From a virus: DNA of 62,693 nt. Shown here piece by piece: positions 4,502 to 48,324 of this stretch. A program made the position numbers and the translations under genes. The notes beneath the pieces are model-generated. The model had not been told where the DNA came from. It worked only from the letters and a program-made list of their open reading frames with translations, and ran no database searches. Location: positions 1-62,693 of IMG/VR virus record IMGVR_UViG_3300047379_001393; one strand, 5' to 3'. Position 1 is the stretch's first letter; each line of letters begins with the position of its first letter.

Positions 4502-6408
4502 TGAAAAAGAAAAAGGTACTAATTCATAGTAATCACTGTAAAGCTTATACAGGTTTCGGTAAGAATGCCAAAAATATCTTACTTCATTTACATAAAACTG
4601 GTAAGTATGAAATTATAGAATTTGCTAATGGAAAAAGATGGGGAGATCCATCCTTAAAATTATTACCCTGGAAATCTCAAGGGTCATTACCTAGCGACCC
4701 ATCAACCTTACAAAAGATAAATCAAGATCAAGCACTAGCTCGAAACGCTGGCTACGGCGGACAAACAATTGATAAAATCATAGAACAAGAAAAACCAGAT
4801 CTATACATAGGCGTAGAAGACATATGGGCTTTCTCTGGGTATACCAGTAGAAAATGGTGGAATAAAATAAATTGCATGATATGGACAACGCTTGATAGCC
4901 TACCCATTCTACCAGAAGCAGTAAACAACGCATCTAAAATTAAAAATTATTTTACGTGGTCTTCATTTGCGTCAAAATCTTTAAACAAATCAGGACATGA
5001 TCATGTAAAAACTCTCCACGGAGCAGTTGATGACACTAATTTCTACAAACTAAGTGAAGATAAAAGAATAAATCTTAGAAATAAAAATAATATAGATCAA
5101 AACGACTTTATTATCGGTTTTGTTTTCAGAAATCAATTAAGAAAATCCGTACCTAATCTACTTGAAGGTTACAAAACATTTTGCAAACAAAATCCTGAGT
5201 GCAAAGCTAAACTACTACTGCACACACATTGGAAAGAAGGCTGGGACATACCTAGACTAATAGAAGAAAAAGGTATTGATCCAAAAAATATTTTAACCAC
5301 ATATGTTTGCGAGCACTGTAAGAATTTTGAAATCAAACCTTACGAAGAGGAAAAGAAAGACTGTAAATTATGTGGGGCAGAAAAAAGCCAAGTTACACCA
5401 AATACTAAATTAGGAGTAACCGAAGAACAGTTAAATGAAATTTATAACTTGATGGATGTATACTGCCACCCATTTACCAGTGGTGGTCAAGAAATACCAA
5501 TCCAAGAAGCTAAATTAGCAGAGTTAATTACTTTAGTCACAAACTATAGTTGTGGAGAAGATTGTTGCACTGAAGACAGCGCAGGTCTTCCATTAAACTG
5601 GTCAGAGTATAGAGAGCCCGGCACTCAATTCATTAAGGCTAGTACTAAACCAGAAAGTATCGCAAGTCAACTCAAAAAAGTCTATAAAATGAAAAAATCG
5701 AAAAGGCTAGAGCTTGGCAGGTTAGCAAGAGAATTCGTAATCAAAAATTATAGCGTTAATTCTGTAGGTAAGCAATTAGAATCAATAATAGACAGTATGC
5801 CTGAAGTCGACTGGGATTTTGACTTTAAACCAATAGAAAAAAACCCTCATTATGAACCACCACAAATTAAAAATGATGGAGATTTCATTAAAGATATATA
5901 CATAAACATCCTACAACTTGAAGTTTCTGAATCAGACGAAGGCTTCAAGCACTGGATGCAAAGACTATCTTCTGATATGTCTCGAGATGATGTACTTAAT
6001 CATTTCAGAAAAGTAGCTCTAAACGAAAATAAGAAATCAGAAAAAATAGACTTTAAAGATATTCTAGATAAAAACGATGAAGACAATAGATTATTATTCT
6101 GCATGCCCGAGAGTATAGGTGATATATATATGTGCACATCTTTATTAAAAAATATAAAACAATTATATCCAAAATATAATATCTATTTTGCAACAAAACC
6201 TGAGTACTTTCAAATACTAGAAGGTAATCCTTATATACATAAAGTAATCCCTTATAGTAAAGCTCTAGATAACTTACCTGCAATGGAAGGACAATCGCAT
6301 CATAAAGGCTTTTTTGAAATAGCCTTTCTACCTTTTATAGGAACCCAAAGAATATTAAATTATATGCACAACGGAAAAGATAAAATACAATTTGACTTAT
6401 GCACCTAA
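4501..6408 (+). CDS. multidomain glycosyltransferase: GT4, linker domain and N-terminal half of GT9
   Basis: This is a 635-residue protein. Residues 1 to about 430 are a GT4-type (GT-B fold) glycosyltransferase, with a glycine-rich N-terminal loop (AYTGFGKNAKNILLHL) and a C-terminal nucleotide-sugar site (HPFTSGGQEIPIQEAKLAE, an E-x7-E type motif). A Cys4 zinc-ribbon-like insert (CEHC and CKLC, about residues 270-292) sits inside it. Residues about 455-510 (IYINILQLEVSESDEGFKHW) resemble the short helical DUF4214 repeat. From about residue 530 (LLFCMPESIGDIYMCTSLL) it reads like the N-terminal Rossmann half of a GT9 heptosyltransferase, but the frame ends at TAA 6406-6408. The other half lies in the next ORF. 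It probably adds several sugars to one glycan. Confidence 0.8.
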   Translation: MKKKKVLIHSNHCKAYTGFGKNAKNILLHLHKTGKYEIIEFANGKRWGDPSLKLLPWKSQGSLPSDPSTLQKINQDQALARNAGYGGQTIDKIIEQEKPDLYIGVEDIWAFSGYTSRKWWNKINCMIWTTLDSLPILPEAVNNASKIKNYFTWSSFASKSLNKSGHDHVKTLHGAVDDTNFYKLSEDKRINLRNKNNIDQNDFIIGFVFRNQLRKSVPNLLEGYKTFCKQNPECKAKLLLHTHWKEGWDIPRLIEEKGIDPKNILTTYVCEHCKNFEIKPYEEEKKDCKLCGAEKSQVTPNTKLGVTEEQLNEIYNLMDVYCHPFTSGGQEIPIQEAKLAELITLVTNYSCGEDCCTEDSAGLPLNWSEYREPGTQFIKASTKPESIASQLKKVYKMKKSKRLELGRLAREFVIKNYSVNSVGKQLESIIDSMPEVDWDFDFKPIEKNPHYEPPQIKNDGDFIKDIYINILQLEVSESDEGFKHWMQRLSSDMSRDDVLNHFRKVALNENKKSEKIDFKDILDKNDEDNRLLFCMPESIGDIYMCTSLLKNIKQLYPKYNIYFATKPEYFQILEGNPYIHKVIPYSKALDNLPAMEGQSHHKGFFEIAFLPFIGTQRILNYMHNGKDKIQFDLCT

Positions 6409-47075: not shown

Positions 47076-47104
47076 TTGACATTTATATTTTTATATACTA
47101 TAAT
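47076..47104 (+). promoter_or_regulatory. perfect consensus sigma70 promoter
   Basis: TTGACA (47076-47081), 17 bp spacer, TATAAT (47099-47104); the ATG at 47112 begins 7 nt later. The promoter starts 3 nt after the stop of the GMP reductase gene and should drive the small genes and probably the tmRNA. Confidence 0.85.
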
Positions 47105-47290: not shown

Positions 47291-47620
47291 ATGAGTAATC
47301 AAACACAAGAAAAACAAGATTCAAAGTGGCGCAGTAGAGAGCTTGGAGCTCTTTGGGTGCGAAGTGGTAAAAGCCAGAAGTACCTTTCTGGAAGTATTAA
47401 TGTTGAAACTATGCCTGGAGTTACAGAGCAACTTAAAGTTGTTGTATTTACCAATAAGGGTAGAGAGAAAAACGAAAAAGCTCCAGATTATGTTATCTAT
47501 AGATCTGAAGAGCAAGCTCAACAAGATGTAGATAAGGTAGCTCAGGCTGCAGCTGAAGAAGTTCAGACCGCACAACCAAGTGTATCTAAAGATGAGGACA
47601 TTCCTGAGGAATTGTTCTGA
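47291..47620 (+). CDS. DUF736-like protein with SSB-type acidic tail
   Basis: This 109-residue protein has a beta body (RELGALWVRSGKSQKYLSGS, then KVVVFTNKGREKNEKAPDYV) typical of the small DUF736-type family found in phages and mobile elements. A Gln/Ala-rich linker leads to an acidic end, KDEDIPEELF, which resembles the partner-binding tip of single-stranded DNA-binding proteins (DDDIPF). It lies 2 nt after the previous gene and 18 nt before the tmRNA. A role as a DNA-associated protein is inferred. Confidence 0.6.
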   Translation: MSNQTQEKQDSKWRSRELGALWVRSGKSQKYLSGSINVETMPGVTEQLKVVVFTNKGREKNEKAPDYVIYRSEEQAQQDVDKVAQAAAEEVQTAQPSVSKDEDIPEELF

Positions 47621-47638: not shown

Positions 47639-48004
47639 GGGCGTGTACTGGATTCGATTTAAATTGAATTTGTATACTGCAAGTAGGAGTGTGTCTGGCT
47701 CCTTTAAAAGGCACAAACCATTACTCGGCAAAAATCTTAGTAATGTTGAAAGCTTCGCTCCAAAAAGCGAAGTTTTCGCTTTGGCAGCATAACGTCTGTC
47801 GCCTCGCAACCTTTGACGCAGATAGAAGGATTGCGGGGTTACCAATCTGCAAAACAGAAAAAGTTTTCTTGAATCACAAACTGTAAATAATTGAAACAAG
47901 AAGTTGGATGTTAATATCATAACTATAAAAAAAATTAACTAAACTTGTAGATGTATATTATTGAAAATTTAAAGACGGGAGTTCGACTCTCCCCACGTCC
48001 ACCA
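47639..48004 (+). ncRNA. ssrA: transfer-messenger RNA (tmRNA)
   Basis: This is a complete one-piece tmRNA. The acceptor stem is GGGCGUG (47639-47645) paired with CACGUCC (47994-48000), followed by an encoded ACCA (48001-48004). The 5' part has the conserved CUGGAUUCGA. The T arm is GGGAG-UUCGACU-CUCCC. Pseudoknot 1 is visible as UGUGUCU pairing with AGGCACA around the GGAG/CUCC stem. The tag frame begins at the resume codon GGC (47727) and runs to TAA (47790-47792), coding GKNLSNVESF followed by APKSEVFALAA. The LAA end is the usual protease signal. A perfect 7-bp hairpin, CUUCGCU/AGCGAAG, lies inside the tag frame. At 21 codons the tag is about twice the usual length. It rescues stalled ribosomes; why a phage keeps it is open. 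Confidence 0.96.
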
Positions 48005-48012
48005 ATTTTTAA

Positions 48013-48324
48013 ATGAATTTTTTTAAAAAACTAAAAAGCTTTCTTCCGATTAAAATAACGGGAGCTCAAAAAGAGAAAGAGAAAGAGAAAGAAGAAGATA
48101 TATTTTATTTTATACTGCATAAATTAACCCAGCAAAAAAGAAATCTTAGCAATAAACCCCCCGACTTAAATGAAAAAGAATGGCTTGATGCAGTAAATAT
48201 TATGATATTTGCATTTAGCGCAAAAAAAAATAATAGATTAAAATCTCGAGCAAGATCAAAAAGACAGCAACCAAAAATCCAGAAAGGATTTATGTTATTT
48301 CAACGATATATCAAATATTTATAA
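48013..48324 (+). CDS. hypothetical basic protein
   Basis: This 103-residue protein begins 9 nt after the tmRNA. It is very Lys-rich with a charged low-complexity stretch (KEKEKEKEEDIFYF), a conserved-looking LNEKEWLDAVNIMIFAF and a basic C-terminus (RLKSRARSKRQQPK). No membrane segment or known motif. A DNA- or RNA-binding role is possible from charge only. Confidence 0.55.
   Translation: MNFFKKLKSFLPIKITGAQKEKEKEKEEDIFYFILHKLTQQKRNLSNKPPDLNEKEWLDAVNIMIFAFSAKKNNRLKSRARSKRQQPKIQKGFMLFQRYIKYL

Follow-up and report, generated by a model that had tools for sequence, protein, structure and literature searches.

The 62,693-nucleotide window, that is, the whole stretch of viral DNA that was analysed (IMG/VR record IMGVR_UViG_3300047379_001393), contains a complete one-piece tmRNA (ssrA) gene with a tag of 21 codons, part of which can fold into an in-frame hairpin upstream of helix 5. 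This is probably a functional phage tmRNA that depends on the AlaRS, SmpB and ClpXP of the host and carries a degron extended through the translated hairpin. The features behind this interpretation, all discerned in the sequence, are the tmRNA architecture, an open tag under coding selection, a conserved hairpin, helix 5, and no detectable phage SmpB. Genes for tmRNA are as such well known, and the hairpin built into the tag is an unusual variant.

A complete tmRNA gene in an uncultured phage lineage

The only Rfam match detected within the window with cmscan is to the tmRNA model RF00023, at positions 47639–48004 of the plus strand (127.1 bits, compared with a gathering score of 47; E = 2.6e-49). 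It spans the whole model (positions 1–374 of 374) and coincides exactly with the full one-piece phage tmRNA of the original prediction. ARAGORN, which had been suggested as a parallel check, reported no tmRNA in the window despite the full-length Rfam match, so that this check by itself would have missed the gene. The 5' strand of the acceptor stem, GGGCGUG (47639–47645), pairs with 47994–48000 (303 of 303 cells paired) and includes the G3-U wobble, an alanine identity element that is invariant in 43 of 43 homologues; the CCA end is encoded at 48002–48004. In the T arm (47977–47993), each of the five pairs shows double changes among the homologues. The ring of pseudoknots is complete: PK1 (47686–47714), with the second helix paired in 220 of 220 cells and double changes in 5 of its 5 pairs, is followed by PK2 (47802–47850; helices 8 and 9 of the covariation structure), PK3 (47854–47901; helices 10–12) and PK4 (47902–47939; helices 13–15), all on the plus strand. 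The covariation structure, obtained from 44 homologues, comprises the acceptor stem, T arm, helix 2, helix 5 and PK1 to PK4, with 86 pairs. Standard pairs make up 97.4% of its 3,779 cells, both partners change in 36 of the 86 pairs, and the structure as a whole has a covariation score of 0.296, against 0.146 when shuffled and at most 0.08 when slid. Because of the Rfam E-value and the covariation across the 86 pairs, a chance origin of the tmRNA match is excluded.

The comparison with related phages that had been proposed yielded 58 distinct complete homologues with tags of 19 to 40 codons, all at the same locus of one uncultured lineage of large phages (profile search over IMG/VR loci). The neighbouring AAA ATPase and a 184-aa protein, used as queries in the IMG/VR scans, gave 34 and 80 loci, respectively, and further loci were added for the profile search. 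Some contigs of the lineage reach 211 kb. The terminase (TerL) is at most ~28% identical to that of any INPHARED phage, and INPHARED contains only one distant relative of the 184-aa protein (30%), in a 595-kb uncultured phage, so that this lineage of large phages is without a close described relative in INPHARED. The terminase frame L145 (from the record of L051) contains one in-frame TAG, possibly a case of recoding, a frameshift, or an intron.

The tmRNA gene is flanked by two small ORFs without family matches, one of 109 aa (47291–47620, plus strand) that ends 18 b before it and one of 103 aa (48013–48324, plus strand) that starts 8 b after it; genes of the region include IMP dehydrogenase-like, deoxyribosyltransferase-like and RuvB/clamp-loader-like AAA ATPase genes. 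A promoter-like site, TTGACA-N17-TATAAT (12/12 matches; 47076–47104, plus strand), is located upstream of the 109-aa ORF and the tmRNA, 563 b from the latter, and of 115 homologous loci, which include near-duplicates, 64 have a 12/12 site of this type in the 900 b upstream. The main sigma factor of Bacteroidota recognises a different box, at -7/-33, so that the TTGACA/TATAAT type of promoter speaks against a Bacteroidota host. In the relative L002, a tRNA-Ser(GCT) gene (5645–5734, minus strand) adjoins the tmRNA.

Some homologues vary outside the tag. The same unusual T-arm variants recur in separate subclades (L007, L010, L018, L034, L042, L044, L045 and L047), with the loop AATCGAAG or with AGCGG..CCGCT, the latter followed by CCAAAA in three of four members. 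L007 and L010 differ at the 3' end of the tmRNA but share 99.5% identity over 580 b farther downstream; leftover CCACCA-like ends are found just downstream in L010 and in L042/L047. These 3'-end variants look like signs of recombination or insertion scars, and an integrase that could have caused the swaps was not found (no PF00589 match in 14 records). Furthermore, an insertion of 25–35 b between PK3 and PK4, such as CCACTGAGTATTCGGGGGCCTCAAGTTTGAGTG, which looks like an extra hairpin, is scattered over the family (L014, L020, L004, L106, L061, L054 and L057).

The tag frame and its hairpin

The tag starts with GGC at 47727 and extends over 21 sense codons, encoding GKNLSNVESFAPKSEVFALAA, to the TAA stop codon at 47790–47792 (frame 47727–47792, plus strand); both this length and the FALAA end agree with the original prediction. 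The resume context in the window is TTACTC followed by GGC, that is, U(-5) A(-4), and UA is found at -5,-4 in nearly all homologues. Among 48 homologous tags, none contains an in-frame stop codon, compared with 36 and 47 that do in the other two frames. In the groups with 20-, 21- and 31-codon tags, 39 changes are found in the last four codons, all of them synonymous, and the C-terminal ends kept among the members are ALAA, AMAA, AVAA or VA. The pN/pS values, 0.16 to 0.70 for the hairpin part and 0.23 to 0.40 for the whole tag, come from small numbers and are indicative only. By these patterns of change, the tag is under coding selection and is apparently translated. For members of the L004 type, ARAGORN gave the tag ANNYMATKTVLKLLA, a miscall; the homologous frame gives GNKNRVKAFGLKAKKLALAA.

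The net charge of the tag varies across the family between -11, at 34 codons, and +10, at 31 codons. Tags of 34–40 codons (L104, L132 and L144) are strongly acidic, from -9 to -11, with one exception (L123, +7), and those of 31 codons (L102, L105, L107, L112, L131 and L133) are strongly basic, at +10, with one relative at +8. The acidic and the basic tags have a similar C-terminal degron.

Within the tag of the window, 47747–47759 pairs with 47766–47778 in a 13-bp hairpin with the loop CCAAAA (47747–47778, plus strand; dG -17.0, z -3.24 against synonymous recodings). The perfect CUUCGCU/AGCGAAG stem originally noticed is thus real and longer than claimed, whereas the alternative AGCGAA/UUCGCU stem is present as sequence but has its 3' copy (codons 17–18) only in the GKNLS subgroup and is not conserved. 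Taken column by column over all 44 sequences, the hairpin is paired in only 279 of 396 cells because the subclades do not align in this stretch; hence, the analysis was repeated within the 20 GK-type 21-codon tags. There, the covariation score is 0.522, against 0.240 (sd 0.023) when shuffled and at most 0.204 when slid, and 8 of 12 hairpin pairs show double changes. In one exchange, GCU...AGC becomes AGC...GCU, which turns FAPKSE into FSPKAE and preserves the stem. Homology of the hairpins across subclades (GNK-type and GK-type), where the columns are not alignable, is based on position.

Compared with their synonymous recodings, the tags of the family fold more stably: the mean z is -3.2, and p is below 0.05 in 40 of 48 distinct tags. 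The null uses the codon usage of the window, and the folded region excludes the first five and last three codons. The hairpins of some members (L015, L018 and L051) are weak, with z of about -1. The span of the hairpin tracks the length of the tag (r = 0.99), leaving ~31 nt, or ten codons, outside; this constancy is partly built in by the fold window, so that a test of tandem geometry with the helix 5 flank included is fairer. With this flank, 39 of 41 distinct tag peptides form helix 5, and the tandem of the hairpin and helix 5 is found in 26 of the 41 tags compared with 7.4% of 2,050 recodings. Two other measures were dropped: the count of pairs against recodings, given that most recodings pair somewhere, and the unconstrained fold of the tag alone, in which the 5' strand of helix 5 mispairs and which the tandem-geometry test replaced. 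We read the tag as a typical tag of ten codons to which a hairpin has been added in frame, after codon ~7 and before the ALAA end; covariation and folding energies indicate that selection acts on this fold as RNA, with the reading frame kept open.

Alternative explanations and a proposed mechanism

The hairpin could simply be helix 5, shifted or lengthened, as in the Rfam alignment, where cmscan places it on the helix 5 columns, and the helix 5 of E. coli begins at a similar point, residue 108, which is ~18 nt beyond the first base of the resume codon at residue 90 (PMC1168896). However, the defining position of helix 5 is that of the stop codon in its loop (PMC1168896), and just downstream of the hairpin, there is a separate covarying helix of five pairs, GGCAG/CUGUC (47783–47800, plus strand), that carries the UAA stop codon in its loop, is paired in 218 of 220 cells, and shows double changes between A-U and G-C across homologues. 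Given that the stop codon is in the loop of this downstream helix, the hairpin of the tag is a helix in its own right, located ahead of helix 5; accordingly, the Rfam placement was rejected, and with both helices in one fold for 39 of 41 tags, we consider the shifted-helix explanation unlikely. Selection on the peptide, or codon bias, might also have produced the hairpin as a side effect, inasmuch as the tag encodes a peptide with partly conserved residues. This seems very unlikely, as folding is much poorer when the tag is recoded synonymously with the codon usage of the phage, and the swaps between A and S residues leave the stem intact.

With regard to origin, a recent capture of a host ssrA together with its tag would fit the view that phages gain ssrA from their hosts (PMC9004378), and long tags exist in a few bacteria, such as a Spirochaetales MAG with a 21-aa tag. 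Nevertheless, blastn against 991 bacterial genomes (395 Bacteroidota, 398 Pseudomonadota and 198 Spirochaetota) detected no near-identical copy and no full-length similarity, only pieces of up to ~75 b, the best being 78% identical over 68 b in the tRNA-like domain, and the 58 diverged copies at one phage locus point to long residence, which makes a recent capture improbable. Thus, of the two outcomes that had been named as refuting the prediction, failure of a covariance search did not occur, and no tmRNA close to that of the window turned up in ~990 genomes of three phyla. Relatives likewise gave no lead to the host, with no TerL above ~28% identity in INPHARED and no close tmRNA in the same ~990 genomes. 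In a Flavobacteriia MAG, one phage-like contig (L205) has a tmRNA with a 20-aa tag, GINNALSNFFGSAEEMPLAA, and a hairpin; the MAG has its own separate tmRNA, and the contig is probably a misbinned phage. It was discarded as a clue to the host since its tmRNA differs from the window family. Finally, the tmRNA could be decaying or serve as a decoy, titrating away SmpB or AlaRS instead of tagging, as proposed for phage DS6A; a phage tmRNA reduced to the tRNA-like domain inhibits tmRNA in E. coli (PMC11915505; PMC4131195). Here, by contrast, the tag frame is open in 48 of 48 cases, the degron end is invariant, and every pseudoknot is retained, so that such a role appears highly improbable.

Under the interpretation that we favour, a functional tmRNA that works with host factors, the gene would be transcribed from the host-type sigma-70 promoter together with the flanking small ORFs, processed at both ends, and charged with alanine by the host AlaRS via the G3-U pair. 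SmpB (PF01668) was not detected in any of 34 phage records, which are fragments beyond which an SmpB gene might lie, whereas the same search was positive in 10 control bacteria; a self-contained phage system, with the tmRNA and its own SmpB, is thus not apparent in these fragmentary records, although other huge phages carry SmpB (PMC7162821). Loaded with host SmpB, the tmRNA would enter stalled ribosomes and switch them to GGC at 47727, adding Ala and 21 residues that end in FALAA, and the tagged products would be recognised by ClpXP-like proteases of the host. The idea that the phage retags stalled products in its own way holds only in part: the C-terminal ClpXP-type degron is kept, so that the tagged products should still be degraded.

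The extra length of the tag would come from the in-frame hairpin directly upstream of helix 5, which the ribosome would have to melt and translate. We favour a packing role, in which the hairpin keeps the long frame compact and outside the first ~19 nt to be loaded, and the tag could lengthen without enlargement of the tmRNA ring; the hairpin may also play a role in the timing or the proteolytic fate of the tagged proteins. A phage may maintain its own tmRNA because the host ssrA is lost with the host DNA, because of heavy early translation, or because of a preferred degron; the original suggestion that the leaderless, AT-rich mRNAs may need it is speculative. More tentatively, a translated hairpin beside helix 5 might be a general phage device that lengthens the degron (17 to 40 codons, charge -11 to +10), is kept by selection on fold and frame, and causes a fate of the tagged proteins, or a pause of the ribosome, that the host tmRNA does not bring about; we consider this possible but rather doubtful. 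To our knowledge, no rule has been formulated for the variation of tag length among tmRNAs. The lengthening rule suggested here is simple, namely, the added codons form a hairpin that follows the stretch loaded by the ribosome and precedes helix 5. The natural series of 19, 20, 21, 31, 34, 38 and 40 codons makes it possible to address the cost of translating a stable stem in trans-translation as well as the effect of a longer, charged degron on proteolysis.

Comparison with known tmRNAs

In the bacterial genomes sampled, the median tag length is 9 to 10 residues (30 tags from Bacteroidota, 28 from Gammaproteobacteria and 27 from Spirochaetota), in agreement with the 8–15 codons originally given as usual, and tags of at least 18 residues number 0, 0 and 2, respectively, one of the two being a likely miscall. 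The published range is 8–35 aa (PMC8012679), with a mode of 10 (PMC11915505). Thus, the 21-codon tag is unusual, not unprecedented, and the 38- and 40-codon members of the family are slightly beyond the published range.

Phage-encoded tmRNAs are known from mycobacteriophages, as the original prediction noted, and extend well beyond them, to 402 of 18,146 phage genomes (133 unique; PMC9004378). Those of Bacillus phage G and the huge phage LR756511 have tags of only 13 and 9 aa, respectively, by ARAGORN, and are too distant for a full-length match to the family profile; the tmRNA of Melnitz, in contrast to the present one, is two-piece (PMC9004378). Since ARAGORN misses phage tmRNAs of the kind described here or assigns them wrong tags, they are probably undercounted. 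Two pattern scans of IMG/VR revealed diverged viral tmRNAs (below 75 bits to the family profile) with long tags, such as ANSDIDMEFAPSLAEADEILAKFGYVEEEELQLAA and AKRNLAKVSFLSARKNKSGNALVAA. In 14 such tags, the mean z is -4.6, and in 13 of the 14, the hairpin starts 18–20 nt past the first base of the resume codon; these tmRNAs, on other viral contigs, share the hairpin layout of the family.

Among bacteria and organelles, long tags are known in mycoplasmas and in the Odontella plastid. We also found tags of 18–25 residues in bacterial MAGs of Omnitrophota, Clostridia, Puniceicoccales and Spirochaetales, in a genome scan that required GAYT after CTGGATTY and therefore undercounts bacteria. These tags, of about 18–27 codons overall, resemble those of the phage family in length, but an in-tag hairpin more stable than in recodings is found only in Omnitrophota (z -4.3), with z between -0.5 and -1.5 for the other bacterial long tags (uniform codon null).

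The phage tmRNA shares with the bacterial one-piece tmRNA (RF00023), as exemplified by E. coli ssrA, the overall plan, the G3-U acceptor, the U(-5)A(-4) context of the resume codon, a helix 5 whose loop holds the stop codon, the four pseudoknots, and the ALAA end. Unlike the bacterial one-piece tmRNA, the phage family has tags of 19–40 rather than about 9–10 codons and, ahead of helix 5, a further hairpin that is translated.
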